Source: Pocillopora verrucosa | Taxonomy: Eukaryota > Cnidaria > Anthozoa > Scleractinia > Pocilloporidae | Direction: 5' to 3' | DNA length: 64,000 nt | Assembly: GCF_036669915.1 (NCBI RefSeq) | Contig: NC_089316.1 | Location: forward strand, 8,176,520 to 8,240,519 | Part shown: positions 31,098-60,401 of the stretch, one piece after another | Layout: every line of letters starts with the position of its first letter | Numbering within the stretch: the stretch's first letter is position 1 | Program-made: the position numbers and the translations under genes | The notes under the pieces: model-generated | The model's database searches: none | Seen by the model: the letters and a program-made list of their open reading frames with translations, nothing else | What the model was told of the DNA's origin: nothing

Positions 31098-32099
31098 ATG
31101 TGCACGATTCGGTTGACATCAATTTTTTTCGTCGATTGGGAGACCACAAGCAAAGATTTCGTGAAAGGGATAAAGTTCACTTCCACGCAACGCGATATAA
31201 AACTTCACTTGTTTTACAACAAGAAAACACCGAAAAATGAGCTTCCTGGAGATTCAGAGTGGATTGTGAAACATCCTACGCTTACATCTTCCGCCGAGGC
31301 GTCTTGGACGGCGCTTTTAACGTACGTGCTGCATTTTTACACGCACACGGCGTGCAACTGTACAAACAACCACTGTAGACTTTGGCCCAAGCGTCATGTT
31401 CATACAAAGTACAGGGCTCATATTGTATGCGGAGACGAAGCCAGGTACGAAGAATTGCAAGCCATTTTGAAATTCAATAAAATTCCTGTAAAAATAATCG
31501 ACGTTGGCGAGCGTACCCTTCTCGACTTGTTTCAATATTCTTGCAACCACTGCAAAATTATTTTCAAAACTAAGAAAGAAGCTGATGCCCATGACCAGAG
31601 CAAGCACAATTTTCTGTGCACGAATTTGAGATGCGAAAAAAGCAAGCGAACGAACGGCTTCTTTGCAAGGAAGGAATTGGAAGATCATCTTGCGCGCCAG
31701 CGGAGCTGCGAATTCTGCCCAGATAAGATATTCTGCTCGACTAAAAAACTTGAAGAACACATGGGAAAAACTCATAGAAAATGCGACTGCAGCTGCGAGG
31801 AGTACTACGAAACGAGAGATGAATATCTTGAGCATTTTTACAGTAATTTGCCTCTGCCGTGTCTCGAAGAGCCGAGTTGTTCCGAGCGCTTTCCGAACAT
31901 TGAGTTTCAAGCTTTCCACCACAAGTCAGTCCACGGGGCAACCTATCCGTACTATTGTATGGCCTGCTATAAAAAGAAGTACTTGGTCTGTCTCAAAACT
32001 GCTGAAGAATTATTGAATCACGTGGAGGAAGAAAAACATAGTGATGAAGAATTTTCTTTTGCGCAAATTCCTCTCCATATTGCATTGGGAGAAAACTGA
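31098..32099 (+). CDS. Paralogue A: intronless NYN/PIN-like plus Cys/His-finger protein, 333 aa
   Basis: Single uninterrupted frame. Residues 8-45 form a beta-strand-like start with an acidic motif, IFFVDWET, then a helix and LHLFY. Residues 106-135 (RAHIVCGDEARYEEL...VKIIDV) look like a second strand-helix-strand. Together these resemble an alpha/beta nuclease-type fold (PIN/NYN), a hypothesis only. Residues 149-315 form an irregular finger array: C149-x2-C152...H165-x4-H170, C174-x4-C179...H197, C204-x2-C207...H221-x4-H226, a CDCSC cluster at 229-233, C255-x5-C261...H274/H275/H279, and C287-x2-C290...H308/H314. AATAAA lies 26 bases past the stop. The start is the first ATG of the frame and gives the N-terminal motif shared with B and C. 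I do not recognise this family. Confidence 0.85.
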   Translation: MCTIRLTSIFFVDWETTSKDFVKGIKFTSTQRDIKLHLFYNKKTPKNELPGDSEWIVKHPTLTSSAEASWTALLTYVLHFYTHTACNCTNNHCRLWPKRHVHTKYRAHIVCGDEARYEELQAILKFNKIPVKIIDVGERTLLDLFQYSCNHCKIIFKTKKEADAHDQSKHNFLCTNLRCEKSKRTNGFFARKELEDHLARQRSCEFCPDKIFCSTKKLEEHMGKTHRKCDCSCEEYYETRDEYLEHFYSNLPLPCLEEPSCSERFPNIEFQAFHHKSVHGATYPYYCMACYKKKYLVCLKTAEELLNHVEEEKHSDEEFSFAQIPLHIALGEN

Positions 32100-32124
32100 T
32101 GTCTGGAAATTCAAGGCAATGGAC

Positions 32125-32130
32125 AATAAA
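32125..32130 (+). terminator. Polyadenylation signal of paralogue A
   Basis: AATAAA 26 bases downstream of the paralogue A stop codon. Confidence 0.6.
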
Positions 32131-33711
32131 AAAGAGAACGGAATTTCCTTCGGAACGTTCTTTGTAAGAGACTATTTCTAATGTTTGACTCTGTAAAAAT
32201 CGCCGAAGAATTTTGCTTCAACTATGACTTTAGACAGGGCTACGTTCAACATAAAGTAAGCAAGGAGAAACGTATTTTTCCAACTGAGAGAAATAATAGA
32301 AACGAAACACTTTACCCAGAGTTCTTCTTCAATTCTAAGGGAATTCGAATTTTTATGTGAGATCAAGGTCAAGTTTAAGAGTTTCATTTCTTATGAACCT
32401 AGAGTGACCTATTCGATTTATTAAATTGACTCTCAAAAGTGCGCGTACTACTCCGACTCAACAAATGTTTAACGTGAAATTTTTGGGAAATTTTATTTTT
32501 TCAATAAAAACTAAACAGAGGTCAATTATTTATGACTGATTCCGGCCAAAAGTTTTCCTCGGAGTTCTTTCAAAATCTGATCATCAGATCATCAATCTGA
32601 TCAAAAATGTTGAACATTTATAATGCATTTTGCCAGAAGTAGTTGGTGATAAAGATGTGATATGAATTAATTTGGAAACGTTATAGTTCGTAGGTCACTC
32701 CAACAGAACAAACGGCATACTTGGGATAGTTTTTGATTTGCTAAACAGTCACAAGTGTACGTGCTATGCTGCGCTACAGAAGTCAAAGATCAAAAGCACT
32801 CCAAGTCAAGAAACTCTAATCTTTGTTTTCAGATTACAAATTAAGCAATCACTAGAGTAATGAGTTTACATAGGCAGAGTGCCACGGCCACGTGTTTGCC
32901 TTCCGTGATAACTTGTTTAACTTTGGAAGTTAGGTTTTCTAAGCCAGCTGGAGTAGTTCTCATGCTATTTAGGCGACCAATTTTGTTGCTAAAAGGCAAA
33001 AGAGCAATGTAGTCCTATCGTGTTTTCTTGCAACTTCGAGAACACGAGATCTTAAAGAAACTCTAACTCTCTCATCCACAGAAATGGCATGGAACGCGTT
33101 TGAATTACTTGATGTCTCCTACAGAGCAGTTCCTCTAAATTTCGAAAGTGTTCGGTTGTATTTGTAGAGGTGTGTAGGTGATTGTAAATAGCATTCATAC
33201 TCAATCCACCTGTTTAACTAAATAATTCATGTCTTCAGGCGTTTTAAGTAATTAAGGGATTTTTCAAAATTCAGTTTAAAAGTTTCAAGTTGTATAATTG
33301 CATGAGATCGGGATATTCAGAAGAAAATAAATTGAGTTACTTTTGATGTCCATATTTGTATAGCTTAAATGGTTTTGAGGTTTTCAAATATTCTTTTATT
33401 TCATGTTACTTTTTATATAAATTTTTATATTTTCTTTGTATCGTGCCGACTGCTTTTGAACAGCTGAGATAATTTCTCAATTGCAAAGATTTGATGGAGG
33501 AAAATACATTTTAGAAGTATGCAATTTTAAGAATTTCTGTGACATTTGTATTTCATTTTGATCACGATGTGCTGCAAAAATTAATGCATCACATCCACTC
33601 CTTGTTTGATCTGACGCCCAAAGTTTGGCAAAACTTTACAAAATTAATTCGTTTTTGTGTAGTTTTACTTTGTGTAACGTTCGTAGTTGATAATTAGACT
33701 TCAAAGAAAGT
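32131..33711. other. Non-coding interval after paralogue A
   Basis: AT-rich sequence with no supported gene and no recognised repeat until the foldback elements begin at 33.7 kb. Confidence 0.5.
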
Positions 33712-33952
33712 AATAAAGGGGGTAAGTTTCTAAAGAAACTGATGCTGCGTCGGTAGGAGAGTATAGCAGGTAATTTAGTGTTAACAACTGAGTTGAAAAC
33801 GTAAATTGGTCACCGTAAAGGGTAAAAAAACTGACATTTCGAGCGATAACCCCTCGTCTATCGCTCTGACGAAGGGCTAACGTTCGAAACGTCAGCTTTT
33901 TCACCCTTTCCGGTGGCCAATTTACGTCTTCAACTCAGTTGTTAACACTGAA
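33712..33952. mobile_element. Foldback element, family F, near-complete
   Basis: Long imperfect palindrome. The left arm has gtttctaaagaaact, gttaacaactgagttgaaaa, cgtaaattggtcaccg and gacatttcgagcg; the right arm is its inverse (cgttcgaaacgtcag, ccggtggccaatttacg, tcaactcagttgttaac). The centre is ctctgacgaaggg. No coding capacity. Confidence 0.85.
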
Positions 33953-33994
33953 TTAGTTCAAAGAAGCTAATTTTCAGGCCAAGAGGTTTTATCT

Positions 33995-34380
33995 ATTGTA
34001 TAGTAAATTGGCCACCATAAAGAGTTTCTAGAGTTTCGAGCGTTGGCCCTTTGTCATGAGGCCAATAGCTCTGACGAAGGGCTAACACCCGAAACTTCAG
34101 CTTTGAAACTCTTTACGATGGCCAATTTACATTATCAACTCAGTTTTTAAAACCATATCTTCTTGTATACCCCCTACTGACGCAGCGCTACAGTTTTTGG
34201 ATCAATATCAGTATCTGGACAACTGCCCACCTACCCCTCCCCTAACTCAACAACAGTCAATTAATAACAAGTTAGGGTCAATGTTGGGTTAGGGGAGGGG
34301 TGGGTGGGCAGTTGCCCAGAGACTAATATTGATCCCAGTTTCTTTAGAAACTTACCCCCTTTATTTACTGTTTCTTTATT
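33995..34380. mobile_element. Foldback element, family F, interrupted by a second element
   Basis: Arms read agtaaattggccaccataaa and tttacgatggccaatttaca. The 3' end sequence cagtttctttagaaac is split: cagttt stops at about 34198 and resumes at about 34339 after a separate 140-bp palindromic insert. Confidence 0.75.
34199..34338. mobile_element. Small palindromic element nested in family F
   Basis: Inverted ends ggatcaatatcagt and actaatattgatcc, with inner arms gcccacctacccctcccct and aggggaggggtgggtgggc. It is bordered by a repeated agttt. A related element lies at 43.57-44.0 kb. Confidence 0.7.
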
Positions 34381-35300
34381 ATATAGCCTAACATTTTAGG
34401 AGTTAGAAGCACGACTAAAGAGGAAAAGAAAAGAAACCAAAGAAAAGAAGAAAAACGTTTTGCCCAACATTTGTTTTGTGGGGAATCTTTGATGAGTTAT
34501 GGGACTTGAGAGAAATTATCATGGTTATTACAGAGTTAAATTTGTTATCGAATTAGTTGCTTCTGTCAGGTTTGTCTAATCTTGTTGTCAGCTATCTCGA
34601 ATTTGCTTCAGGCTAAATAGCCAATTAGCTCTGTCTATCCATTCTAGAGCCAAAATTTTAAATATCTCTCTTTATTGAAACGATCGACCTGAAATTTCCA
34701 CCTCAAATTTTTCTTATTTCCTACATCTGACATTGTGCAACCCAGAAGTGTTTACGAGGTTTGTCGCATAGAAACCGATGGACGCGATAAAGAAGACTGC
34801 TTATACGTCAAATCGTTGTTTTTGGTGAGCGCAGTTCACTAATCAGCATATGCGCACGCAATTTATTACGATCGCCATTTCCTTTTATTCTCACTGGCGG
34901 AGAAAGCCCTGAAAACGATAATGTCGTAATGATGATCCATGTTTAAACAAGTTTAATTAATCCCAAACTTACGAAAAACCTGAGCGATTTGAACGAACAT
35001 GATGTTTCATTCGGCAAAAAAACAAACCAATTAAAACCCAGTGCCTCTAAATGTGAACCTATTTGAAAATTTTTGCTTTGTTTTGTGTGTCTCCTTGGCG
35101 AGGAAGGTATGAGGTTTATTACATTTCTCTATTGTAACCTTGCGAAAAGAAAACAAAACGAAATGTGTTATAATTGCTTGTAAAACAAATCGGCTTTTGT
35201 CATTGACACGAGGCATCAGTACAAAACGATGGCTCAATAACAAAGACTTAGTTCTTCTGGCAAACTGTATAAACATTCGGAAAGTTGCTGATAAAAAAAA

Positions 35301-36245
35301 ATGCGCGTTAAGTTCTTTCTTCTCGATTGGGAAACCAAAGGTCAGGATTATCTCCAGGACATTACAATATCTCCTCAATCAAGGGGCTTTCTTCGTTTCT
35401 ACGTGTTCTATCGGAGTAAAGAAATACCGGCGAAGTTGCTACCGCAGTTCAGATTTCTGCATGTGCCCAGGAACACAACTATAATGCCATTTAGCGCTGT
35501 AGATTGGAGATTTCTTTCGACGAAGCTGATCGCTAAGGACCCGCACGTTCGAGTGCAAGAAAAAAGAGACATAATCCTCGTTTCATCTGAAGCCCAAAGT
35601 GTTTTTTCCTCCTTGCTAGAAATCTTAAACGAAGAAAATGCTTCCTACAAGGTCGCTGATACTAAGGAATGTTCTCTCATGGACGAATTCCTATACATTT
35701 GCGATAAATGTCGCATGGTCTTCTACAACAGAAAAGAACTAAGAAAACACGACGAGGTTTCCTGCGGGTTTTTCGATGGTTGTCTTACGCAGAAGCACAA
35801 ACGAAAAATAGGATTTTCTAACCAGGAATCCTTATTTCAAGAACGCGTTCAGGACGCGGACAGATGTGATCTGTGCACCGCAAATTGCGTTCTAACGTAC
35901 TGCCCTCATACAAGAAGGAAAGAAGACATGAAAATGATTCACAAAACAACGTACGTGGGCAAGACACATCCGTGTTGGAGTAAATACGACACGAATGATT
36001 TCAGCGCGCACTTTTTCTATGGTTACGATGTTCTGCCATGTTTGGCGGTGACCGGCTGCACGCGCACGTTCCGCACTCTTCAAGAGCAGGCACATCATCA
36101 CGTGACCGAACATGGCTGCCGTAAGCCGTATTTTTGCATCGTGTGTTATAAACTGTTGAAATTCAAATGTTTCGAAAGTGAAAATGAGTTGTTGTACCAC
36201 GGTAAACTCGAGGGACATTGTGAGCCAGAATTTTCGTTTGCTTAA
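35301..36245 (+). CDS. Paralogue B: intronless NYN/PIN-like plus degenerate finger protein, 314 aa
   Basis: Single-frame gene 3.2 kb downstream of paralogue A on the same strand. The N-terminus keeps the family motif (KFFLLDWET, then RFYVFYRSKE) and a second strand DIILVSSEAQSVFSSLL at 90-106. The finger region (134-306) aligns with A but several Cys/His are missing or shifted. The fourth unit, CDCSC in A, reads HPCWSKYDTNDF, and the third has extra residues. The last two units are kept: C247-x5-C253...H265-H267 and C279-x2-C282...H300/H306. The C-terminus PEFSFA matches EEFSFAQ in A but ends 10 residues earlier. AATAAA lies about 40 bases past the stop. The reading frame is intact, so it is more likely a divergent functional copy than a pseudogene. 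Confidence 0.8.
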   Translation: MRVKFFLLDWETKGQDYLQDITISPQSRGFLRFYVFYRSKEIPAKLLPQFRFLHVPRNTTIMPFSAVDWRFLSTKLIAKDPHVRVQEKRDIILVSSEAQSVFSSLLEILNEENASYKVADTKECSLMDEFLYICDKCRMVFYNRKELRKHDEVSCGFFDGCLTQKHKRKIGFSNQESLFQERVQDADRCDLCTANCVLTYCPHTRRKEDMKMIHKTTYVGKTHPCWSKYDTNDFSAHFFYGYDVLPCLAVTGCTRTFRTLQEQAHHHVTEHGCRKPYFCIVCYKLLKFKCFESENELLYHGKLEGHCEPEFSFA

Positions 36246-36285
36246 AAGAAAAATATCTTGATTAAATGTGAAAAAATGAAAAACC

Positions 36286-36291
36286 AATAAA
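36286..36291 (+). terminator. Polyadenylation signal of paralogue B
   Basis: AATAAA about 40 bases past the stop of paralogue B. Confidence 0.55.
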
Positions 36292-36351
36292 GGGAGCAAT
36301 TACGTTCTACAGAAACTGTGGTTACAAGATAATTTGCTTTGATCAAATAAG

Positions 36352-36485
36352 TTAAAAATGTAATTAAGCCACCGGAAAGCGTTTTTAAAGCTGACGTTTT
36401 GATTGTTTGCCCTTCGTCAGAGCTAATAAGCTCATGATGAAGGGCTAACGCCGGAAATATCAGCTTCAGAAACTCCTTACATAAT
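36352..36485. mobile_element. Foldback element, family F, short diverged copy
   Basis: Contains taattaagccaccggaaagc, agctgacgttttg, cccttcgtcagagc, then gatgaagggctaacgcc and atcagcttcag as the inverted arm. Confidence 0.65.
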
Positions 36486-36507
36486 GCGTTATTGACCAAG
36501 CGTGAGG

Positions 36508-36635
36508 TCAAGACGGCTGGATTTTGGCCGAGTTCTTTTTTTGCGTTTTTTTTTTTTTTTTTTTTTGGACGAAGTTGAGGTCCATATCGACAGAAAAAAA
36601 AAGGACGAGGCTAATATCCAGCCATCTTGACTGAA
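36508..36635. mobile_element. Hairpin element with T-tract centre
   Basis: gtcaagacggctggatttt at the left end is inverted at the right end as atccagccatcttgac, enclosing a run of about 22 T and a run of 9 A. Non-coding foldback of another type. Confidence 0.6.
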
Positions 36636-37199
36636 AAAGCTCGGTTACGAAAGGATTTAATATCTAACAATATGAAAATCGCATTATTACGAAACCACAC
36701 CTGCTTATTTCGAGAGACGAGAAAGAAAGCCAACTGTTTTTGTAGCAACCCGGTTTTAATTGTGTTTTTATGTTTTGATTGTCTCCTGCCGCTTTTTGTG
36801 ACTCTATTGCTGACATTGTCCAAAAAGTATGAACTTTGTATGTCCTCTCCGAGTTTTTTTTTTTTCCTTTAATGTTACCATCCGTAATCAAAGCAGGCAA
36901 TCGCGAGCAGGCAAGGTGGGCTCACCTCTCTCGTTCGGATAGTCAATCAGAACACAAGATTCACCCGCGAGCACGTGGATAGTCAATCAGATGTCTTCCT
37001 TACATTATGAACTTAGTTGATAGAACCAAATAATATAGTAAAGAAAAAAGCAGATGCACTAAACACTTGACGAGGAATACTCAATCACGAGAGCCTGCTC
37101 GCAAGCTAAACAGACAGCGGTAAGAGATATTGTGACAGGCGCTAGACCCCTGACAACTGGTCTTTAGTGAGGCCGTTGCTTTCCCTCGTGATGAACACT

Positions 37200-37640
37200 T
37201 ATCTACAATGGCAGAATAGGTGTAATATTTTTGCGTTTTTCAGCCGAACTGAGGCAAGCGCAAGGCGGCACGAAGTGCGAGTCACGCGCGAGGAGAATAG
37301 CGCGGAAAGAGAAATGACCCCCCTCGCGCTTGTCTCTATTCGCCTGTCAAGGCTCGGTCGAACGCATGCAACATTTTGTAACATCGTAGGATTGTGCAAA
37401 GGAGCTGGGAAAATGTGCGCAACATCTTGCAACATCCTAAAATGTTGCAACAAAAATGTGATCATTTTTAAGCTTGATCCATCACCATCCAACATCCCAC
37501 ATGTTACCACAAGGTGGCCAAACGTGTGCAACACGTTACGCGCAAAAATTTTGCAAGATGTTTCGTTGAATTGTTGCGTTTGTATGTAGCATGCATTTGG
37601 CCAGGCCTTAACACGCAAAAAGTTACGCCTGTTCTGCAAG
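37200..37640. repeat. Region rich in GCAACAT-type motifs and inverted fragments
   Basis: Repeated gcaacatttt, gcaacatcttgcaacatc, atgttgcaac and gcaagatgttt on both strands, with open frames on both strands that mirror each other. Probably an old DNA transposon fragment. No protein is supported. Confidence 0.35.
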
Positions 37641-38236
37641 CTAGATTCAGAATGAAATGTATACCGGTTGGTGGGGGGAATTAATGATAATATATACTGA
37701 TTAAATCCCAGACATTAGAAGATCTTTCACGCCAACAGAGAGATTTTACTTCTCGATTGTAAACCACTCACAAATCGCTTGTTTAGAACAAAGAACCGCT
37801 ATGTTACGTTTCTTTTGACAAAGAAGTGAAAATAAAATACACGATTTAAAATATCTCCAAATGTTGCTTCACATGCAAACGTGAGTTTCAAACAACTTGA
37901 AACAAAAAGTCAGTTCCAAGGAACTTTGAATAGAATTTCCAGTGAATACACTGCTATAACACATGAAAAAACATTTCATAAAAATAAAGTTACAAATACC
38001 CCATCATTCCTGCCTTCAGCAGAAGGGTTTACTGGTAACAACCATCTCATCTACTTCAAAAGGTGTCTAGTTTTTCACTAACGTTTCAATTAACTTTTTT
38101 TCCAACACATATTTCACAGAAAGGAACAACAGACTTCGAAGCGGCCAAACCCTCCCCGTCAAAGTCACAGGGTCTCTTGACTTCTAACAGACTCTAAGGG
38201 GAGGGTTGCTTCAAAATGTTTTTGTCTTTACTTAAC

Positions 38237-38449
38237 GCTTTCGCCCCTAAGAGTGACGAGCATCTTATTTCTCCTTACTACCAGTATATTACTTCTGAAT
38301 CAAATATAAAGTTATGAGAACAGAGGAGATAATCACCAACTAAAACAGCTCTTGACTGTTACACAAATTCTCCTTGTCAGCCTCTTTGGAAATGTATAAA
38401 GAACAGTATGGAGAATATGCATACTGATGTTAAGGGGTAAAGGGTTAAC
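38237..38449. mobile_element. MITE, family M1
   Basis: cgcccctaagagtgacgagc through gatgttaaggggtaaagggt, with the full family core including attctccttgtcag and atggagaatatgc. It lies downstream of macroH2A. Confidence 0.8.
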
Positions 38450-39667
38450 TTGATCTTACTCATTCCTCTCCCCTCCAATTTCTTTGTCCCTCTTTTGTTA
38501 ACTCTTTAACTCCCACATAAGATTAACTCGTAACTTCTCTTTACAATTTTGACAAATTATGCACCATACAGGTGATAAGAAACGAGAACTTTATCAGCAG
38601 GAAATGCTAGGGTGATATATAACACCGTTTACTCCTCACCAACTTATGGGGAAATGTAAGGAAACTGGAAAGCAGTACTACTAATCAGATCATGGTTGCT
38701 TCAGAGTTGACATGTTCATCACAGCACAACATATTGGGGAGGAATGATTAAGAGCAAGAAATATCGGAACATCCCCGCAAAAGGGAACTACCTTAACAAA
38801 GAACTTGAACTCATGCATAATTTTCTCCATGTCAGACTTTGTAATTCGGTAACAAACTAACAACAGGGGGAGGAGTGGGTGGAGATCCACTACCCACCCC
38901 ATCCTTAAAGAGATCAAGAAGATGAGTATATAAGTAATCCTAGACTAATATGTTTACTTATTGAGGATAAAGTACGTCCTGAAATCATAGGGACCTTGTC
39001 AAACCCCCCCCCCCCCCAACTGAAACATAGTACTACATGATCTGCAAAGGCAGAGGAAGGCCACATGTGATTCACTGGAGCCTTAACCTATGCTATTTAT
39101 GTCACCAGTAAACCATTTTGACTCCTTGAGCAAGTTAAATGTGCTTGTTTAAAATTGCATATGAAACCCCACGGCGATTACTTCATCAAACGTTAATTCT
39201 CCTTTACAGTTTCCATACAATAAATATTGCTCTGGTTTGGGGAATAACTCACCCTCAGCACATGGAGGCAATTTTCCTTGGCATCCATCCTTTTACTCAG
39301 GTCTAGGGAACAGATACTTTCAGATGCTGCTTTACTAACAGTCAGTAAAATTGAAGTGTTCAGAGTGCAAATTTCCATTACAACACTATTAAGAAGGACA
39401 CGTAATGACAATACTGGCAAAAATAGATGTCATGGTTTCATCTTGATGTAACCTTCACTTTTCAAAACTGACACAATGAAATGTATGGAAGCTAATAAGA
39501 AGAATCAACACTCAGATTTTAAGGAGTGGAAAGTATAGATATAAAAAAAAAATACAGCTAAATTCAGCACATGACAGGCAGACAAGATGATGATGACACA
39601 AATTGCGCCTGATCATTTCTTACAGTGGAATATTCTAAAAAGATGTGACAAAATGTGTAAGCAATTC

Positions 39668-45693
<6,026 letters not shown>

Positions 45694-45874
45694 GTTGGAT
45701 CCAAGAAACACACACAAGTTGCAAGGGGGATGAGTGAAGTGTGTGCTAGCTTGGCGTTGTCTGTCAAGCCGCTAAGTAACCAATCACAGACAAGAAGCCA
45801 CTAAAGTTTCCTACCATATTTGGGACTGCGTCCTTCTCAGGTGCGCGTGGCGTCTGTTTCGAACAAAGAATCAG
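45694..45874. promoter_or_regulatory. macroH2A upstream region, possibly bidirectional promoter
   Basis: Between the macroH2A start and a plus-strand donor (CAG|gtgagt at 45875). It contains a CCAAT motif (gtaaccaatcacag) about 90 bases upstream of the ATG and a locally G+C-rich stretch (ggtgcgcgtggcgtc). No TATA box is evident. Confidence 0.4.
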
Positions 45875-46380: not shown

Positions 46381-46558
46381 CCCTCCCCTCCAGCTGCTAT
46401 ACATTCACTTGTAAATCAGTTATAAGAATTTGGTATTAGATCAAGATAACAAACTATACCTGATAAGTTTGAGTATTCTCAACACCTGTTTTCTGGATAA
46501 TGTATGAATATCATAGGGAGAAGTTACATGTTCATCACCTTTGGGAGTGAAGGGGTTA
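46345..46558. mobile_element. MITE, family M3
   Basis: ttaaaattcccagatctagc through cctttgggagtgaaggggtt, with core tgctatacattcacttgtaa and ggtattagatcaagataaca. It lies between macroH2A and CENPU. Confidence 0.75.
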
Positions 46559-47234
46559 AAGTGGTTCATTGCTTTAACATAAAGTTAAAGTGAATTTTTG
46601 TAATGTGCCTGTAAGCCATTCAGAAGAATAATTTTTAGTATTTATTTGATCTGATCCAAAGAAAATTTATCTATTGCAGAGGACAGAAAGAAGTCACTTG
46701 ATAATCATTCTTCCTAGTAAAGAACTACTGGCATTCATTGGAATATTTATAACAGCATGATTTATGTTTGTCTCTAAACACCAATCTTATTTTCATGCAA
46801 TTTGATGGTCACATACAATATAGTAATCGTGCTGTACAAGAATTCAATATTATAAAATATTTGATGGGTGATGGAGAAATGTTCAAGTTTTTTTCTTTCA
46901 ACAAATACCTCCAGCAAAGTCCATCATGCAAGTCAGTAGAAATTAGTAAAAGATACATTGGAGCAGCATGGAATCTGTGAGGGGCTCCCAGAGTTCAAAT
47001 GGTGCTAACTCATCATTTTTTGCTTATTTCTTTTGACTCAATAAGTGACAGACTTTACTGGGGAAGACAGACCACTTTTGGTCAGCTTCTTCTTTTTTTT
47101 TTTTTAACTCTATTTACAATTTTTTGGTTCAAAGAATAAGTAGCATGGCATAATTATGGTTACTGAACAAATTTAGGTTTGACTCAGTAATCAGACATAT
47201 TTTAAAACCTTGTCTTAAAATTTTTTTCTTCATG

Positions 47235-47240
47235 TTTATT
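47235..47240 (-). terminator. CENPU polyadenylation signal
   Basis: TTTATT on the plus strand (AATAAA on the minus), about 42 bases past the CENPU stop. Confidence 0.55.
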
Positions 47241-47281
47241 TGCACAAATATTTGTCTTGTAATCAAATTAATAGACACTTA

Positions 47282-50200: not shown

Positions 50201-51089
50201 CCCAGCATTTCATCAGGCTTCCCTGACACTTCACTGGTACTCATTTTAACTCCTTGGTGGAGAGAGGTATCGTGAAAGTTTTATCTTAACCCTTTAACTC
50301 GCAAGATCTAATTAGAATTTCTCCTTACTGTCTGCTATACAATTCTTCAGATGTTAATTCTGAGAATTTGGTATTGGATCTATTAATAATCTCCTAATTG
50401 ATACTTTTCTTGGTTCTCATCACTTGTCTTCTTGATTTTGTATTGATAATGTAAGGAGAAATTCTGCTTTGGTCACTCATGAGAGTTAAATGGTTAAAGT
50501 GTTTCGCCAAAGAACACGGTAACCTGCACAATTTAAACTACAACCTACATTTAGAGGTTTTATTTTCAAAGGAGGGGGGGGGGGGAAGAAATCAGAAAAA
50601 CTTTAAAACTAAACACAACCATTTTTCTCTGTTTTCGATAATAGTGTGGAATACAAGACACAGACAAAGGTATGGATCATCCCAAGCTCAGGTTTTATAT
50701 TATATTTGTACTGCAGATACAGGCTTGGTGAACCTCTGTCAATAGTTATCTAACCTTTTAAACCCTAAGAGTGACCAGCATCTAGTTTCTCCTGACAATA
50801 ACACTTCCGAATTATTCATTTAAGATCTTGAGAATAATGGAAATGATCACCAACTTAAGAAGCCCTTGATTGTTATACAAATTCTCCTTGTCAGCGCCTT
50901 AGGAAATTTATTGAGAACAGTATGGAGAATATGCATACTGATGTTAGGGTGTAAAGGGTTAAAAGTTATTACATAAAAAACTGAAAATTTTAAAGAAAGA
51001 AAACATTAAAACCACTAAAAAAGCATTGCACATGGCTATGAATAATAACTACACACTGTTCTAGACAAGTTCAACCATAACCAAGCAAT

Positions 51090-51138
<49 letters not shown>

Positions 51139-54100
51139 TATAATAGGTCATTAAGTTTGAACAACCATAAAGGGTAAAAGAAACTGACGTTTTGAGTGTT
51201 AGCCCTTTGTCTATTGCTCTGACAAAAGGCTAACACTCAAAACATCAGCTTTTTTTACCTGTTATGGTGGCCAATTTACGTTTTCAACTCAGTTGTCAAC
51301 ACTAAATTAACTGCATAACCAAGCAACCTTAGTTTCATGGTATCAAATACTCGAAGTGTAACTTACAGTTTCACTGAATGTTTTTCTCATTTGTATGAAG
51401 AGTTCTTTTATGGCTTGCTTCCCAGATGTTGTCTCAATATTGTTCCTATCAAAATATATACATCATGGAAATTCTTTAATAACCCTTTGACTCCTAGGAC
51501 TGACTAGCATCTAATTTTTCTTTACAATATCACCCCTGAAGCATACATTAACCCTTCAACTCCCAAGATTTCATTAGTAATTCTCCTCACTGTCTGCCAT
51601 ACAATTTATGTGTTGCTACTTTGGAGAATTTGAAATTGGATCAACCAATAATCCCCTAATTGATATTTATCTTTATTCTCGCCACTTGTCTGCTTGATAT
51701 TGTACTGATATTGTAAGGAGAAATTCTGTCTTGGTCACTAGTGGGACTTAAAGGGTTAGGGTCAAGAGAATCAAGGAAATCATCACCAACTAATTGAAGC
51801 CCTTGATTGTTAAACAAATTCTCCTTGTCAGCACCTTAGGAAATGTATAAAGAACAGTATGGAGAATATGCATACTGATGTTAGAGTGTAAAGGGTTAAT
51901 AACCCTTTGACCCCTCAAGAGTGACTAGCATTCTTATTTCAGCACCTGATTTCCAAGGCTTCTTCCTCAACAGCAGTAAGAATAACATCAAGATCTGTTA
52001 TCTCTGACATTCTCTTTTTTCTTCCATGATCAGCATTAAACAATCTCACAAAGTTATTTTCTAAAAGAAACAAACCATAATTGGTGAATTAACAGAAGAT
52101 CAAACCAGCAGCTCTAGTAAGAGGAAGCATGCAACCACACTTGCATGAGTTTTAGGCACAAACAGACTTGTACTATAGCATAGGGCAATTAGTATATTGC
52201 AAAAAAAATATGTTGTCCATTTTAAGTTTGTCATTGTTCTCGTAAATATGACCTGATATACAAATCTGCAAACAAAGAATTATTTTTTATAAGTTGAAGA
52301 TTCTTTTAATTAACTTAGATCTTCATTTAATCTGGAGTTTAATATGCCTTATGACATTTTCTTCTAAATTTGAGACAGTGAGTGTTCCAAAAAATGTGTC
52401 AATAATTGGAGAGAGGTTTCTTCTCACTTCTGTATTCATTTTCTAAGGATTCCATCTCCTCATCTCCTGTTGGTTCAGCTACTTTTCCTTTTCTCTTTCT
52501 GCTATTTCTTGTCTTAAATGCAACAGGACCTGAAACAGGAGTCTTGTCTGATAAAAACTGCAAATAAAAAAAATGAAAACTTTTTGTTGATAATCTACAA
52601 GACTGTGAGTAATATCATAAAAATTAAATAGCTTAATTATATACATAAGTAGCTGACTTATGTCAATCATATAATTCTCAGAAAAGATTAAATGCAACTT
52701 CTCCTTGCAATTCCAATTGATAGTCTTGTAAAAAGGTTACAAGAACAGACAAACTTATCAGTTAGAGGGTGTTGTTTTGAAATAAGACTAAATTCTTCTG
52801 TATAACTTACAAGAAAAAGTATGGCAGTCAGTAGGGAGAATTATTCATTGTATCTTGGGAGTTAAAGGGTTGAATTGGTCTACTTGTACCTTTTGTGGAG
52901 ATTGATTTGGAGTTCTCACCATGCTTCCTTGATCTGTTGATAGAAATAAAAGCAAGAATTTTATCACTTTGTTTTCTGATCAGCAAATAGCTGACAGACA
53001 AGAATTTAAAAAAAAAGAAAAAAAAGAGACAAGTTCATAAATAAAAATTTAAACTGGATGGAAACAGAAAGCTGGTAGTTGTGGTAATTTATTCATAGAT
53101 AATTAATGGTACAAAAACCTGTTTTAGTTTCATCCTCTGAACTGTACAATATAATTGAACTTGGACTTCCATCAGGTGTTCTAGAGTGAGAAACTAATAA
53201 CACCTGCTCATGGTCTGCTAAAACACTGCTTTGACGTGGGATAATGGGAGAACTATCCTGTAGAACCTCAAGATGGTGGGTAACATTTGATTTTGAGGCC
53301 ACCAGACTTTCTATCAAAGGAGATCTCAATGAATCTCTTGAGTTCTTTGGAGGGCCTTGATCTGGTATTGGTGGCACTGGAGATAGTTCTTGCCCACTTG
53401 GAAGTGCATCTGGCAATCCCTTTTGAAAAACAGAAGCAAAGGATGCTATAAGGCAATTATTTCCCCTTTACATTAGAATCTATATTCTCCATACTATTTC
53501 CTTTACACATCCCTTTAGTACTGGCAGGGAGAATTTGTTGAACAATCAAAGCTTCTTAGGTTACCGATCATCTCCTTTTTTCTCACGTTCTTAATGAACG
53601 ATTCGGAAGAATTTCTGTAAGGAGAAATTAGTTGCTGGTCATTCTTAGGGTTACAGGATTAAGAAACTGGATCTTAAGGTAAAAAATGACACTATACAGG
53701 CCGTGTTGGTGGGAGGCAATAACAAGGTAATTTGGTATTATCAACTGAGTTGATAACGTAAATTAGCCACCATTAATAGTTTCAAAGCTGACGTTTCGAG
53801 CGTTGGCCCTTCGTCAGTGCTAGTTGGAGACCAATTGATCCATAAAGTAAAGACGATACAGATGTTGATAATAATAATTACACATTTTGCTCACCTGACT
53901 TGAAATGGCAGTTGTAGTGGTGGCGACTTGCGTTGACCGATCTCTCCAGTTTGTATTAATCTTGAAGCTTCTTAATGTAGTTTGACGCTTTCTAGACAAA
54001 GATAACACCACGGTTTAAATGATTTGCTAGAAGGAGAGTTCACTAAAATCGACTTCTCATACAACTTCGAATCGATCAAGCTTTCTTCGCGTTTTTCCCA

Positions 54101-54265
54101 TTTATACCACGAGTCAGAACGTCAACTTAGATTATTACAATATAAGTAACGCTGATGAACTTACGAAGGCCTTCTCCTTTCCAATCCAGCTTGTCTCGTG
54201 AAACGAACGGATGCTCTAGTGTTTTGAGAGAGGTGATCACGAGCATCTTCAAGTTCTGCCGCCAT
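47282..54265 (-). CDS. CENPU: Centromere protein U (CENP-U)
   Basis: Twelve coding exons (high to low): 54265-54165, 53991-53895, 53419-53119, 52933-52890, 52557-52428, 52060-51946, 51445-51367, 49748-49701, 48980-48919, 48573-48513, 47962-47870, 47392-47282; all junctions hold phase, giving 413 aa (the human protein is about 418). The N-terminal half is Ser/Pro-rich and disordered, with a basic patch NSRKRKGKV. The C-terminal half matches CENP-U: EITDLDVILTAVEEEALEI, then KQAIKELFIQMRKTF, a long coiled coil rich in Lys/Gln/Glu (ENQMLKANLRKAKSKVN and KKVQQNQERQK), LEDFSSFLVDLEALQ, and the end SCDNLPSLLIEGHSSL with LRSINELLKQ. CENP-U belongs to the constitutive centromere-associated network that links CENP-A chromatin to the kinetochore. 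The first ATG lies in a short exon with the typical MAAELEDA start. Introns contain at least ten MITEs. Confidence 0.9.
47570..47780. mobile_element. MITE, family M3
   Basis: ccctttaactcccaagatct to cttctgggagttaaagggtt, complete with inverted ends; CENPU intron. Confidence 0.85.
48180..48388. mobile_element. MITE, family M1
   Basis: ccctttaacgtctaagagtg through gttacggtgcaaatggttaa, with the full M1 core; CENPU intron. Confidence 0.8.
48665..48862. mobile_element. MITE, family M1, diverged
   Basis: Core tcaatgctgaatcaaacatc, gatcatttaccaaagaagc, ggagaatatgc and end ggtgtaaagggttaa; CENPU intron. Confidence 0.7.
49088..49235. mobile_element. MITE, family M3, reverse, truncated
   Basis: taaccctgtaactcccagaa and ggtaatgagaatacccaaac-type sequence, the reverse complement of the M3 right half; the rest is missing. 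Confidence 0.6.
49293..49505. mobile_element. MITE, family M1
   Basis: acccttttattcctaagagt to ttggggtggaaaggattga, with core attctcctagtcagcacctt; CENPU intron. Confidence 0.75.
50288..50497. mobile_element. MITE, family M2, complete, flanked by TTAA
   Basis: ccctttaactcgcaagatct at the left and catgagagttaaatgg at the right are inverted ends. TTAA stands on both sides, as in piggyBac-type insertions; CENPU intron. Confidence 0.85.
50755..50963. mobile_element. MITE, family M1, complete
   Basis: ccttttaaaccctaagagtg to gttagggtgtaaagggttaa, with the full core; CENPU intron. Confidence 0.85.
51090..51310. mobile_element. Foldback element, family F, complete
   Basis: Left arm ggtaagtttctaaagaaact, accataaagggtaaaa and tgttagccctttgtc; right arm gacaaaaggctaacactcaa and tggccaatttacgttttcaa; CENPU intron. 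Confidence 0.85.
51482..51900. mobile_element. MITE M1 interrupted by a nested M2 copy
   Basis: The M1 left part (51482-51549) stops in acattaa and its right part resumes at gggtcaagagaatcaagg (about 51757). Between them is a whole M2 element, from cccttcaactcccaagattt to gtgggacttaaaggg, so M1 is older than M2 at this site. Confidence 0.85.
52683..52872. mobile_element. MITE, family M3, diverged
   Basis: Ends ttgggagttaaagggtt, with core caacttctccttgcaattcc and gtatggcagtcagtagggag; CENPU intron. Confidence 0.6.
53460..53662. mobile_element. MITE, family M1, reverse
   Basis: Reverse-oriented core ctatattctccatactattt, tttagtactggcagggagaa and agaaattagttgctggtc; CENPU intron. Confidence 0.75.
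53685..53825. mobile_element. Foldback element, family F, one arm
   Basis: ggtaatttggtattatcaac, gtaaattagccaccattaat and gacgtttcgagcgttggccc; the opposite arm is missing. CENPU intron. Confidence 0.65.
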
Positions 54266-54684
54266 TTTTAGTGTTTTACGTGTTTTTCGTACCCAATCTA
54301 TTGACGGCCAATCTAGCTATCTAGGCTCGCATACCGTGCTAAGCTTTGGCGAAAGTGTCAACTAAGTATAAACTATATAAAATTCGACAGGACGCGATTC
54401 TCTCTGCTACGAATTCATTTTCACTTGACTTCTTCACCTGTAGAAAGCTAAGAGACACCAAGAAATGTTCTCAAAGCAATTTATCACAAATTCAACACAG
54501 AGATTAGATGGTAAAACCTAAGGAATGGGTATGTGGAATTTATTTTGTTTAACTCGAAATTTAGAAATCCAGGCTAGCCAATGGATAAAATTGCATTCAG
54601 CATTAGGAATTATGCTTTGATAAATCTCCCTTTTACTGTCAAGTATCATACTTCTTTCTGGAGTCTTGTAAATAAAATAAAGAC

Positions 54685-54880
54685 TTAAAAGGGGTAGGTT
54701 TCTAAAGATACTGGGTGATGCGTCTGTGGGGGAGAGGCGGTGGGAAGCTGGAAGGGAGGGAAGGGGGGAGTTTTTACAAGATAATTTGGTTTCATCAACT
54801 GAGTTGGTAAAGTAAATGACCACCCTAAAGAGTTCCTAAAGTCGACGTTTTGAGCGTTCGTCCTTTGTCATAACGTTGAT
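54685..54880. mobile_element. Foldback element, family F, one arm
   Basis: aaaggggtaggtttctaaag, then a G-rich stretch, ttggtttcatcaactgagtt, accaccctaaagagttcc and gacgttttgagcgttcg. It is just upstream of CENPU. Confidence 0.65.
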
Positions 54881-55014
54881 CGAATCGCATAAATAGTGCA
54901 TTGTTGCCTCGCTAGTATAAATGAAAATTGTATCCGCCCCTGTTTCTTTTGGTTTTTCATTTTTTTATTTCTGTACTTTTTATTATTAATTTTTGAGCTT
55001 TGTAAGCGTGCGTG

Positions 55015-55115
55015 TGTCGTCATCATCGTCAACGGTATCGTCTACGTCATCGTCCTCATCGTTAACGTCGCCTCCGACGCTTCATCCGTCTTTGTTGTCG
55101 TTGTCGTTGTCGTCA
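55015..55115. repeat. Degenerate GTC/CAT trinucleotide tract
   Basis: Repeats of gtcatcatcgtc, acgtcatcgtcctcatcgtt and tgttgtcgttgtcgttgtcg. It gives open but compositionally biased frames that are not supported as coding. Confidence 0.8.
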
Positions 55116-55955
55116 CAAAACGAAATAATTTTCTTTTTTTTTTGTAGAAAAAAAACTATAGAACGTTCAAACGAGAGAAAGAGAGAGAGAGAGGAGATTC
55201 ACAGGCGGAAACAGGATAGGGGAATGTGTGCGGTCGTAATTTGTCATATTTAATTCTTCATTATTCCGAAGCTACAAGGTGCATACAGAAGCGTTATCTA
55301 CGCTAGTTATCAAAAATTTAATAAAACGCTGTCAGCCTATTTGTTTACGTTTCCAAAACAAACAGAAAAAACAGATTGATGAGTGACCCCTGACTGGGTC
55401 AATAAACTGTAACCAATTGTGAAATAGAAACCAAACTCAATTTGTGAAATTTATGTGCATAATAAATATTACAGAGAAAATTTCGAACTTCAGTTAACCC
55501 GACAGTATTTTCGTTAATGAAATATTCAGGTCTCATTCAATGCAAATTAAGTGAGATATAGCATCGGTTACCATGCGACATGAAACACTTTAAGAAAGAT
55601 CTAACACCTGCTATGGGGCCTTACAAACATATTTTACGATACGGTGAGCAAACAATCTCAGGAAATTATTCATCTTATCAAAACCCTACGCATTTGGAGC
55701 TTATTTAGCCTTCTGGAACAGTTTCGTGGATAGTGTTTAGTGTCCTTTGCTATGTATAAGAATAAGTAAAGAAGACGTGAGGAAATTTTGAAGAAGTATT
55801 ATTTATTATTGTTTAACTTCGTGGGCTGCTGCAAGTGTTGTCTTCGTTGGAAATATTATACGTCGAATTCAACCGAAGAGGCAAATATTTTCGGCATGCT
55901 AACATTACTGAATATCATAGAAATTTAGAGACAGAAGTATTGCGAGGCCTTCACC

Positions 55956-57011
55956 ATGAATTCTAATCGAAGGATTGTCTTCTTCGTCGAATGGGATACA
56001 GACTTCGTCAGTTTTATCAAGGGAATCACTTTGTCGCCATCGCTACGAGGCGTCATTGTTTTACACATCTTCTATAGGCAAGAAATTTCGACGAAATTTC
56101 TTCCAAAGTACAAACCCTGGCTTTTTAAGCATCCTGCAGCTTCAGAACAGGAAAATTCCGCTTGGGATTTGTTGGAGTCTTACGTAAAGAGATTTAACTT
56201 CGAAGCAAACTATTCGTTGTCGACACCTCATGAAAAAAGGAGGCCGGGAACCGCAAAAACCTCAGCAAGTCTGGGTAGTCGGGGTGGTTCTGATGCATTT
56301 GTTGGTAAATCTGTTCCCACTCAAGCGTACTACGTGATCTCAAAATCGAAAGAAAGATGTAAAAAGCTGGCTGAAACTGTTGATCAAATGCAACAAGTCA
56401 AGCTGGAATGCGTGGAATTTACCACAACAACAACATTACTAGATTTTCTACAATTTAAATGTCCCTACTGTAGGATTGCTTTTACTGAAAAGAGGGAGCT
56501 GGATATTCACGACAGAGAGAGCCATGGATTTGTTTGCCCGAACCAGGAATGCAAATTTAACGCAAAGGAAAACTCTTTTCGCGGAGAAACCGAGTTAAAG
56601 GAACACATAAAAAATCAACTTCGATGCGCATTTTGCCCCACAAAGGTGTTCTGCTCCTCGGATGTGCTAGAACTTCATAAGCGAAGCTCGCACAAAAAGT
56701 GTCCCTGTCCTTGTGGGAAATATTATGGCGAGCGATTGTCATATCTGGATCATTTTTTCGCTGTTTATCCTTCGCCCTCTTCAATTACTTCGTCACCTTC
56801 CGCTGGTGAAAGACAGACGAAGGGAGAGTTGGGAAATAATCGTGGTCACCTACACGTTGATAGTAGCCGTAAGAGCGCAGCTGATAAACTAAAAAACAAT
56901 TTGTCTGAATATTCGGCTGAACCATCACGTGTAAACGGTCAGTCGCCTAACAAGTCTACAGATAGTTGTAGTCTAGGCGGAAGTAAAGAAAACGTTGCTC
57001 ATGAAGGATGA
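55956..57011 (+). CDS. Paralogue C: intronless NYN/PIN-like plus finger protein with divergent tail, 351 aa
   Basis: Same family as paralogues A and B. The N-terminal motif is IVFFVEWDT followed by VIVLHIFYRQE and W-x2-KHP; the linker (about 82-122) is longer and Ser/Gly-rich. A second strand YYVISKSKERCKKLAE is at 125-140. Fingers: C169-x2-C172...H185-x4-H190, C194-x4-C199...H217, C224-x2-C227...H241-x4-H246, then CPCPC (249-253) and H266. After DHFFAVYPSPSS the family sequence stops. Instead of the last two fingers there are about 75 Ser/Asn/Lys-rich residues ending at the stop. Either the tail is replaced, or the missing part lies in an exon I could not find downstream. The frame is intact. 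Function unknown. Confidence 0.8.
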   Translation: MNSNRRIVFFVEWDTDFVSFIKGITLSPSLRGVIVLHIFYRQEISTKFLPKYKPWLFKHPAASEQENSAWDLLESYVKRFNFEANYSLSTPHEKRRPGTAKTSASLGSRGGSDAFVGKSVPTQAYYVISKSKERCKKLAETVDQMQQVKLECVEFTTTTTLLDFLQFKCPYCRIAFTEKRELDIHDRESHGFVCPNQECKFNAKENSFRGETELKEHIKNQLRCAFCPTKVFCSSDVLELHKRSSHKKCPCPCGKYYGERLSYLDHFFAVYPSPSSITSSPSAGERQTKGELGNNRGHLHVDSSRKSAADKLKNNLSEYSAEPSRVNGQSPNKSTDSCSLGGSKENVAHEG

Positions 57012-59171
57012 CGATACAACTAAGTGAAGGCAAATTTATGGAGTCAATTACGTGGTACCAAAGAATATTACCTGCTCTTGCCCATTCAAAGTTATCCTAA
57101 TTATCAAACATGTTTGTGTCTGCTGAGCGCGAGAACTACTGTGCTCATTCTGCCGCCGTATGATGCAATACAACACATTTCCTTCCTGTATCGAAAGCAC
57201 AATTCGAAGAAAGCAGAAGAAATTCGAATGATACTAAGAACTAACCAAAAAGCTGGATTGGAAACCCAAATATCGACATTGGACTTGGAATAAGGAACAA
57301 TCAGCATAGGCCAAGCTTTGAACAACCCTTAACTGGAGTCACGAGAAAAACCTTGATAAGCAGGCCTAAACCACTTCAGGATATATAACTACACAGAAGA
57401 GGTCAATTGTGGGTTATGAAACCTCCTAATTTTCATTATATGATTAGCAGTTCTCTCTTCTGCCTGTCATACATTTTTTTGGAAATTATTCGGGAGAATT
57501 TCATGCTGTATCAAGCAGGGAAGAATAAATCTCTTGTGATCAAGAGAACACCCTCTAGGTGGTTGTAAGTAATTCGCTAACTTTCGATGGTCAGTAAGTT
57601 TGCGCGGACATTTAATTTTGAAAGGTTACTGATGAACCTCTGGACCGAGACGAAACGTCACGTTATACCAGCAGTTAAGTATTTCTACAAGTATTTGACG
57701 TGTTTGACATTGTTTATTGTACAGAAGATCATCAAAACTCGGCAGGATAAAACTTACAACCTTCACTTCGATGAAAAGGAAAAAAAACTCCCGGGAAGTA
57801 TTATTCGTGAGTAGGCTTTACTGACACTAGTTTTTTTTTCCAATCTTTTTATTTCCTCAACTGAAGGCAACGCTCTCAGAGATTCACAGATATGATTCAA
57901 TAAAAAAAATCTAATAAGCAGCCTGTGCTCAAAAATTTTTTTTTCGTGTTTTTTCAAGTCAGTCAACAAACTGATGCCTTTTAAAAAGTCGCGAAGGTAA
58001 GTTACCGGCAGAAATTACGGTGACCTCGAGCCGCGAAAAAAATTGCGCAAAACGCAGAAAAATCACCAGTCCAGAAATGTTAAAAAATATTAAATAAATA
58101 GAAATACTAAAAAAAGGTAAATAACATATATAAACATAACTCCAGATGCATGGTAACCGGTTCTTTCTGTCTCTGTCCCAAATTATTTTCATGGAGGAGG
58201 TAGTTTGGAACTTCGAAGAATCCTTCTCCGATTCGTGACTTGGTCGAATTAAGTTGGATTAACCACGATAATATTTTCCGTCGAGTTTCACGCCCCTTAA
58301 GCCATAATCATCCAAGCAAAACCATGAGAAACATTCTAAAAATAAAGAAAAGAGTCGAAGATAATATTTTTGGCTTATTGAGTAAAAACTGATACCACAA
58401 GTCCTCTTTGATTGAAATATACACTGTCAATTTTGACTTCTAACCTTCATCCCGAGTTTCAATTAAGAGAGTTTGTTTTTGTTGATACAGCGGTTGGTCG
58501 GTCTCTCTTCAAACAGACCGATAGATGACTGATACGCAAACATGGCTCAATTTTTGTCAAAAAGTATTTTCATTAAGAAAAGTACCGCTTTCTAATGGTC
58601 AAAGATACACTCTTTTGTTCTCACGTGATTAGACTGCCATTTTACAATTAGTTGTTAATTGTACCACTTCACAATGATTCTTAGCCGGGATGAAAGAGGA
58701 TTATAACTGACTGAAAGCTAGACCAATATTGCAACTCAATCAACAACCTTTCAACACTGCAATTTCGTGTTCTTCACCGGCCTTTGTAATTCTAATTATT
58801 AATCGCGGTGTTCAGAGTTCTCAGTGACCTAAATATATAGAAAGCACGAACTCTTTTGTCTTAGAGACGTCTGGTCAAGACTTACTGTTTGTATTTCTTG
58901 CCAAACTTCCCTTTTCATTCGAAGACGACTCAAAGATGTCAACGTTCTTTTTGTTTTCACGCCGAATTGAAGCCGCTTATGATAATAATGTTTGTCAGCC
59001 CGTTTGTTCACCTGCGTGTCGGGAACTGTTTCAGTCGGATGGAAATACAATATTTTAATAGTATTTTTTTGGACCATCCTTCAGTCAGTTATTGGCGAGA
59101 ACGTTTAAAGCACCGCTGCTTTGAAGACGTACATGTGAGATCGACGGGCCATCAACTAAGAGTCAATAGAG
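57012..59171. other. Non-coding interval between paralogues C and D
   Basis: AT-rich. Frames at 57024-57293 and 57587-57814 are open, but I could not align them convincingly to the missing C-terminal fingers of paralogue C or to any family. No MITE copies were noticed. Confidence 0.45.
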
Positions 59172-60401
59172 ATGTTCGCGGGAAGACATTACGATGAATT
59201 CTATTTGGTGTGGGAAGGCAGCTGCCGCAACTTCATCGAAGACATCAAATTTACTTCCCCAGATGCAAAGTCGCGATTAAGCGTTCACGTTTTCCTGCGG
59301 AATGATACTCCAGTGAAAGCCCTTCCGCCATCAGATCCAGACTGGATCACAACTCATTTCACGCTCACTACATCCCCATACGCATCTGATACGGGGCTTA
59401 TTGCGTGCCTTCTTGAGAAATATGGTGATCTCGTTGAGGAGTCAGGCGACAACCAAGATACGTCGCTGAGACGAGTTTTCTTGGTCGCAGAGCGAGAGAG
59501 ACAGTATGAGGAACTTATTGCGAATTTGAAGTTGTTTAATGGAAAATTGGACATTAAAGAGATCAATGGTCTGGAAATGGATATTTTTGAAGTTGTGAAG
59601 GATTCGTGCAGATTTTGTCGCCTCGTGTTTGCCTGCACAGAAGAGACAGACAGACATAACTTTGAACAGCACAACTTCTTCTGTCAAAACCCCTTGTGCC
59701 ATGGCTACCGTCAAAGATTTCCATCTGAAGAAGTACTTTTGAAGCACAAGGCCTCACAAACGACATGCATACACTGCCAAGAGTTGTTTTGTTCGGATGA
59801 TTTGAAGAAAGCGCACATGAAACATGAACACAATATCAATCCCCACAGTTATCCACCGATTGAAGCGAAAGCGGGTTTCTTTACAGAGCAAGAAAAAGGT
59901 CCATCCTTGCCATTGCGAATTTCATGTCAGTTTTGCCCTCGGAAGCAGTTTTTAACGAAGGACCAGTTGGAAATACATATGCGAAACTCGCACAAGAAAT
60001 GCAATTGCTCATGCGGGAGTTACTTCAAATCGAGAGAGGAATATTTAGATCACTTCTACAGTGTTTACCCACTTCCTTGTTACGAGAACCGGAAATGCCC
60101 GCACCGCTTTCAGTCGGTTTATTATCAAGCAGTCCATCATAGAGATTTCCACAACTCTCTGAATCCATTTTATTGTGTTCCATGTCAGAAAAGAAAAATT
60201 GAAGAGGGCCTGGCTCTCTCGACTGCGAAGACCTCCTTCAAAGATGACAGGAGTTTGCGGATTCATGGCTGTTCTTTGGGTCACAACGAGAAAGAAATGT
60301 TCTTACTGAATTTTGATGATGCTGCACTTAACATAGGGGGAGAAACAGCCCCTCTAAGACGATCCCCTACAAGAACAACCTCAAACTTAAATTATTGTTA
60401 A
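59172..60401 (+). CDS. Paralogue D: intronless family member with an extra finger block, 409 aa
   Basis: Longest of the four copies. The N-terminal strand reads FYLVWEGS, so the acidic D/E-W-E/D motif of A, B and C is altered. The rest of that domain is clear (SVHVFLRND, DPDWITTHFTLT). The second strand is RRVFLVAERERQYEELIANL, very like A. Fingers: C146-x2-C149...H162-x4-H167, C171-x4-C176...H192, C199-x2-C202...H215/H218/H220, a 30-residue spacer, then C252-x2-C255...H269-x4-H274, CNCSC (277-281), C303-x5-C309...H322/H323/H327, and C335-x2-C338...H365/H371. The C199-H220 unit plus spacer looks like a duplicated finger absent from A. The tail ends in an Arg/Ser/Thr stretch. Start codon is the first in frame, preceded by an A-rich context. 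Function unknown. Confidence 0.85.
   Translation: MFAGRHYDEFYLVWEGSCRNFIEDIKFTSPDAKSRLSVHVFLRNDTPVKALPPSDPDWITTHFTLTTSPYASDTGLIACLLEKYGDLVEESGDNQDTSLRRVFLVAERERQYEELIANLKLFNGKLDIKEINGLEMDIFEVVKDSCRFCRLVFACTEETDRHNFEQHNFFCQNPLCHGYRQRFPSEEVLLKHKASQTTCIHCQELFCSDDLKKAHMKHEHNINPHSYPPIEAKAGFFTEQEKGPSLPLRISCQFCPRKQFLTKDQLEIHMRNSHKKCNCSCGSYFKSREEYLDHFYSVYPLPCYENRKCPHRFQSVYYQAVHHRDFHNSLNPFYCVPCQKRKIEEGLALSTAKTSFKDDRSLRIHGCSLGHNEKEMFLLNFDDAALNIGGETAPLRRSPTRTTSNLNYC

Follow-up and report, generated by a model that had tools for sequence, protein, structure and literature searches.

What do four uninterrupted plus-strand genes, lying in one 64,000-nucleotide stretch of Pocillopora verrucosa DNA, encode, and are their products enzymes? 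The stretch, hereafter the window, corresponds to G000:C5:8176520-8240519 in a 353 Mb genome of 52 contigs. An earlier note, made from its letters alone, described the products, here called P1 to P4, as proteins with an NYN/PIN-like N-terminal domain (N-domain) followed by irregular Cys/His fingers, and compared them to nucleases. The reading that we favor, tentatively, is that they represent a diverged animal family in which a MARF1-like NYN/LK-nuclease domain (DUF88/LabA-type) is combined with an irregular C2H2-type array, the whole serving as a pseudonuclease adaptor.

Four uninterrupted genes of one old family

The four open frames lie on the plus strand exactly where the earlier note had placed them.

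31098..32099, plus strand: P1, 333 amino acids (aa); predicted NYN-like N-domain (about residues 1-145) and six finger units
31098..31541, plus strand: N-domain of P1, from hhalign to the MARF1 NYN domain
31542..32063, plus strand: finger array of P1, from Cys/His positions and alignment
35301..36245, plus strand: P2, 314 aa; same architecture without the C-x-C-x-C knuckle
55956..57011, plus strand: P3, 351 aa; N-domain and four fingers, then a Ser-rich tail replacing fingers 5-6
59172..60401, plus strand: P4, 409 aa; N-domain and seven fingers, the extra unit at about residues 199-225

Measured from stop to stop, these frames span 335 (P1), 316 (P2), 360 (P3) and 413 aa (P4) and are the four longest of the window, while the longest frame in 100 windows of equal composition, simulated as first-order Markov sequences, reaches 222 aa. 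All four form a single family, with blastp E values between 2e-55 and 3e-7 for the pairs, and their aligned identity of 20-36% indicates that they are not recent copies. Across all six pairs the second codon position is conserved (identity 0.47-0.60) and the third is near random (0.29-0.34), which is the signature of old duplicates under purifying selection. A tblastn search of the window recovered no extra copy or fragment of the family below E 0.1. Fifth in length among the frames of the window is one of 201 aa, antisense to P1 (31317-31925, minus strand); it falls inside the simulated range and is probably a shadow of the P1 codon pattern.

The earlier description of a four-member cluster is correct for the four clustered genes, but the family does not end there: a search of the same genome located a fifth member on another contig (G000:C6:25693825-25694292, hereafter the C6 copy), with E 2.7e-9 for the P1 query and E 1.2e-5 for the P4 query. 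With P2 as query it was absent from the genome-search results at E up to 10. Its frame comprises the entire N-domain and the first finger, followed by a stop, and marks the boundary of the N-domain; an N-A-x-acid-acid motif is kept in it as NAVED. The family has at least five members, as found with P1, P2 and P4 as queries in a genome search that scored only the best candidates. A sulfotransferase-like frame, recognized by eye, lies downstream of the C6 copy on the opposite strand. A weak P2 match on contig C9 (E 0.3), adjoining a frame that by eye resembles a G protein-coupled receptor, was taken as chance.

Support for a NYN-like fold in the N-domain

The conjecture that the N-domain adopts a NYN/PIN-like fold is supported, with modest margins, by structural models, and a tentative sequence-profile link to the genome's own MARF1 agrees. 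A predicted fold foreign to PIN/NYN, which the earlier note had named as evidence against its proposal, did not appear. An AlphaFold2 model of P1, built from only four sequences, has a beta-alpha N-domain (predicted local distance difference test 72.5, predicted template-modeling score 0.46). Its best match among solved structures at full length is 2qip, a chain placed in the LK-nuclease/DUF88 group together with the MARF1 NYN domain in PMC2848206, and the best solved-structure match of the P4 N-domain model is the MARF1 NYN domain itself. LK-nuclease structures head the match lists of both models, scoring 8.2 where the best unrelated chain scores 7.1, and 6.1 where it scores 5.8; absence of a family from these lists is not used as evidence.

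As regards sequence, hhalign of the five aligned N-domains against the genome's own MARF1 NYN domain (two exons joined) yields a score of 25.6 and, as a single comparison, E 0.0019, over 105 columns at a loose setting and 59 at default. The alignment pairs VKHPTLTSSAEASWTALLTYVLHF of P1 with a 23-residue MARF1 segment and AHIVCGDEARYEEL with VILVSGDINFAAEL, placing the NAxD-like and VSGD-like motifs of the two in register. Controls reach at most 16.6 (49 unrelated open-frame pieces), 16.9 (60 shuffles) and 21.5 (200 shuffles). When single members are left out, the score is 26.8 without P1, 26.3 without P2, 21.5 without P3 and 23.7 without P4. A Regnase-type NYN domain was also considered as the source and set aside, the three such genes scoring within noise (16.5, 11.1 and 18.0); another NYN gene of this genome, L060, scores 17.9 against the family profile.

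Several results temper the assignment. Only two of the five P4 models are confident and the other three are poor; the hhalign probability for the family against the MARF1 NYN domain is only 14.5%; and without the C6 copy the score drops to 16.7, at another place, so that the sequence signal rests on this copy. As the structural evidence makes no use of the C6 copy, it is in part independent of the sequence signal, and both point to MARF1. The Pfam scan listed no NYN match in the four full proteins or the five N-domains; genome searches with PF01936 and with PF11977 (Zc3h12a-type NYN) found four places and three other genes, respectively, none of them in the family, and P1-P4 lack a CCCH match. 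A search of the PDB with the N-domain profile gave ribosomal S15 (E 0.85) and the like, which were rejected.

The poor models would also be consistent with the N-domain being a three-layer alpha/beta domain of a different kind, such as an FNR-like or other Rossmann one, with its NYN likeness reflecting a common arrangement. We regard this as quite unlikely: LK/NYN entries come out on top for both models, the two motifs are in register, and the sequence profile prefers MARF1 over the FNR loci, for which the score is at most 17.6 among 20 frames (the two longest from each of ten loci, which are not in every case the matching exon and are in some cases shared between loci).

An apparently eroded acidic site

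In MARF1 the active site is formed by Asp358, Asp426, Asp427 and Asp452, and a double mutation at 426/427 strongly reduces activity, according to PMC6294520. The residues found at these four positions, in the same order, are as follows.

P1: D13, W70, T71, D113; two acids
P2: D9, W69, R70, E97; two acids
P3: E12, W70, D71, S131; two acids
P4: V13, D73, T74, R108; one acid
C6 copy: E11, E75, D76, Q101; three acids

P1 was placed by hhalign to MARF1 and the other members through the alignment of the five N-domains, with the C6 copy numbered from its ATG; position 358 is set by motif only, since hhalign begins after it, and the remaining positions come from a remote alignment. The acid-W-acid start that the earlier note ascribed to all four proteins is present in P1 (VDWET), P2 (LDWET) and P3 (VEWDT) and is missing in P4 (LVWEG), although the second acid of this first motif is kept in all five members (E15, E11, D14, E15 and E13 in P1, P2, P3, P4 and the C6 copy).

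None of the five members keeps all four MARF1 acids, which leaves the earlier nuclease reading unsupported. All members have lost part of the acidic metal site, which suggests that efficient RNA cutting is most likely gone. Judging from these residues, the N-domain is likely an eroded enzyme: P1, P3 and P4 are probably catalytically dead, and the C6 copy, and to a lesser degree P2, could still be active. We consider it rather unlikely that the NYN domain still works as an endoribonuclease despite changes in its acidic site and is aimed at particular RNAs by the fingers, in an antiviral or decay factor resembling MARF1 or Regnase. The NYN fold matches, the three acids of the C6 copy (E, E and D), the universal acid in the first motif, and D9 and E97 of P2 would all agree with such an enzyme; P2 would gain a third acid if the alignment were shifted by one residue, since D68 directly precedes its 426 position. 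These points are countered by the incomplete set in every member, down to V, D, T and R in P4 and D, W, T and D in P1, and by the sensitivity of MARF1 to change at 426/427.

An irregular array of C2H2-type fingers

Fingers 1 and 3 of P1, P3 and P4 are regular C2H2-type units (C-x2-C-x12/13-H-x3-5-H, beta-beta-alpha). With units counted and ligands grouped by eye, fingers 1-3 of P1 comprise C149/C152/H165/H170, C174/C179/H197 and C204/C207/H221/H226, and fingers 4-6 comprise C229-C231-C233/H246, C255/C261/H274-275/H279 and C287/C290/H308/H314. The P1 model places helices at residues 159-169, 191-200, 215-225, 240-250, 268-277 and 302-311, mostly after short strand pairs. The earlier note's range of five to seven fingers is borne out by the six of P1, the seven of P4 and the roughly six of P2, whose ligand sets are broken, but not by P3, which has only four ahead of its Ser-rich tail and shows no homology to fingers 5-6 downstream in a tblastn search of the window. 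Likewise, P1, P3 and P4 have both the YL[DE]HF[YF] box and the C-x-C-x-C knuckle, and P2 has neither. Pfam C2H2 scores for the fingers of the family all lie under the curated cut-offs, and no profile of a described finger family, the kind of match that the earlier note had named as evidence against its proposal, passed its own. PADLOC gave only weak matches (E 0.005 and 0.002), which were taken as chance.

Such an array might instead belong to transcription factors or chromatin proteins, with DNA-binding fingers and a protein-interaction N-domain. Foldseek with full-length P1 does match DNA-bound CTCF, ZFP568 and PRDM9 (E to 2.5e-5, with a query template-modeling score of only 0.1-0.2), and the profile of the fingers picks up ZBTB17 and chains like it (E 5e-4). 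However, such matches are generic to C2H2 arrays, no TGEKP-type linkers are seen by eye in the aligned parts, and the ligands of several units are unusual (C-x-C-x-C, C-x4/5-C, or three ligands only); we judge a DNA-binding role unlikely.

A more specific derivation, from the fingers of ZNF598/Hel2, which would make the family a ribosome-collision relative, is suggested by a likeness that catches the eye and by a collinear 78-aa blastp match between P1 and the genome's ZNF598 exon (28% identity, E 0.002 as a single comparison). Among 22 C2H2 proteins, mostly longer than it, ZNF598 ranks only 10th for P1, 21st for P2, 15th for P3 and 17th for P4, and control windows of equal length do as well in 13/101 (P1), 72/101 (P2), 70/101 (P3) and 27/101 (P4) cases. 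Furthermore, hhalign matches a single finger, out of register, and the cluster is absent, at E up to 10, from what the ZNF598 exon retrieves as query. Having failed both C2H2 controls, hhalign and the reverse search, this origin was rejected as very improbable. The RING domain, an N-terminal trait of ZNF598/Hel2, has no Pfam match in P1-P4, where the N-terminus is the NYN-like domain instead. The ZNF598-like finger exon itself (L021, G000:C8:18907516-18907995) was found with PF23230, and a RING-like frame adjoins it.

Genomic setting and possible origin

The coding regions of P1-P4 are confined to single frames, whereas the GCM motif is split over two frames and a histone and a macro-domain frame lie apart, in line with the earlier note; this status concerns open frames, and the untranslated regions may contain introns. 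The neighboring features are listed below; gene names beyond Pfam families, here and elsewhere in the text (GCM, MARF1-like, ZNF598-like and so on), are our own assignments.

13.35-13.74 kb, plus strand: EF-hand-like frame, Pfam score under the cut-off
20.0-20.7 kb, minus strand: GCM motif over two separate frames
40.6-45.8 kb, minus strand: histone (H2A) frame and macro-domain frame, about 4.6 kb apart

We infer that the histone and macro-domain frames constitute a single macroH2A gene. These frames sit between P1/P2 and P3/P4, so that the family is arranged as two pairs. Further EF-hand-like frames are discernible by eye from 0.8 kb onward.

In this genome, which also holds a MARF1-like NYN gene, a ZNF598-like gene and Regnase-type genes, the MARF1 NYN domain appears to be split by an intron (two frames with splice-like ends), whereas all five family frames are uninterrupted. 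The family may stem from a retroposed founder, as proposed earlier, or may descend from another single-frame NYN gene, some of which exist in the genome besides the family; both would explain the intronless frames. Two such genes, L060 (1180-2661, G000:C8:7247166) and L061 (1186-2532, C8:6948820), are very similar, lie about 300 kb apart and look like recently duplicated NYN genes. Each has a NYN domain above the Pfam cut-off; to the eye, both also begin with a Cys-rich, RING-like stretch and carry a VSGDAD motif and CCCH-type fingers. L061 is shorter at its end and has a reverse-transcriptase-like frame upstream.

Repeats are also present in the window. An element with inverted repeats, resembling a miniature inverted-repeat transposable element, occupies 33703-34377, and partial copies lie near 9.9, 36.4, 51.1, 53.7 and 62.6 kb among the matches listed. 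A dispersed repeat of about 100-200 bases at 38232-38451, possibly a short interspersed nuclear element (SINE), has copies about 70-87% identical, among the matches listed near 40.8, 41.6, 43.5, 48.2, 49.3, 50.8, 51.8 and 61.3 kb; a SINE-like frame at 18 kb is reminiscent of stony corals.

Proposed function

NYN and PIN domains are drivers of RNA decay, of transposon control in the germline and of defence against viruses. Under the favored reading of a pseudonuclease adaptor, the fingers would recognize the target, most plausibly structured RNA or RNA-protein complexes, and the acid-eroded NYN domain, without efficient cutting, would act as a folded docking or RNA-contact module, either touching the target a second time or providing a surface on which decay factors could dock. 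From the eroded acids and the fingers one would predict that RNA is bound but left uncleaved, catalysis having presumably been lost. That the ligand is RNA is a guess by analogy with the relatives of the domain, as would be any role in RNA surveillance or defence. A family in which the fold is kept, the acids are lost and a C2H2 array is added would provide a natural test of NYN roles besides cutting. If the fold assignment is true, divergent members from animals escape the Pfam NYN model.

Comparison with known systems

The closest parallel in fold, MARF1 (Limkain b1; PF01936), differs from the family in several respects: the family has eroded acids, escapes detection by Pfam NYN, carries C2H2-type fingers with no RRM or LOTUS match in the Pfam scan of its frames, and is encoded in single frames in contrast to the intron-split NYN domain of MARF1 in this genome. 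The LK-nuclease VPA0982 of Vibrio (2qip) is a bacterial chain of 162 residues with 8-9% identity.

Among viral structures, the P4 N-domain is best matched by a giant-virus protein named for a double-stranded RNA-binding motif (A0A481YND2, Pithovirus LCDPAC01; E 3.8e-6, template-modeling score 0.64), and six of the top ten rows bear such names, with 7-19% identity. The match to A0A481YND2 covers 144 alignment columns on a protein of 213 aa; since the motif is about 65-70 aa long, it must extend past it. Going by their names, these proteins have a double-stranded RNA-binding motif where the family has its finger array, and the likeness is so far one of structure: no viral relatives were found by sequence with the full family alignment or with the P4 N-domain, in searches where a histone query, used to reach the contigs of giant viruses, came back empty as well. 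We view as a long shot the idea that the family is an animal-specific RNA sensor or restriction family, diversified in the cluster, in which a disarmed MARF1-type domain, such as giant viruses fuse to double-stranded RNA-binding motifs, was given its own fingers and was taken from, or turned against, such viruses.

SMG5 is a nonsense-mediated-decay factor and is not known to have a finger array. Its likeness to the family is a works-like comparison only, in that it has a PIN-type fold without the catalytic acids, and without activity according to PMC6294520.

The only architecture known to us that combines C2H2 fingers with a PIN domain is that of ZNF451, where the PIN-like domain (Pfam PIN_11) and the fingers stand in the reverse order relative to the family. 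PIN_11 (PF18479) has no match in the Pfam scan of the family, and its genome search was empty, as it likewise was in the control genomes. In the titles and abstract openings of the literature surveyed, none described a family with NYN or PIN and C2H2 domains in cnidarians. Fusions of the LK-nuclease domain to Zn-knuckles have already been noted in certain proteins, per PMC2848206; hence, there is nothing new in joining the domain to a zinc-binding module per se. As far as our tools reach, it is the union of a NYN/LK fold bearing eroded acids with a C2H2-type array that makes the family a new architecture of known parts.

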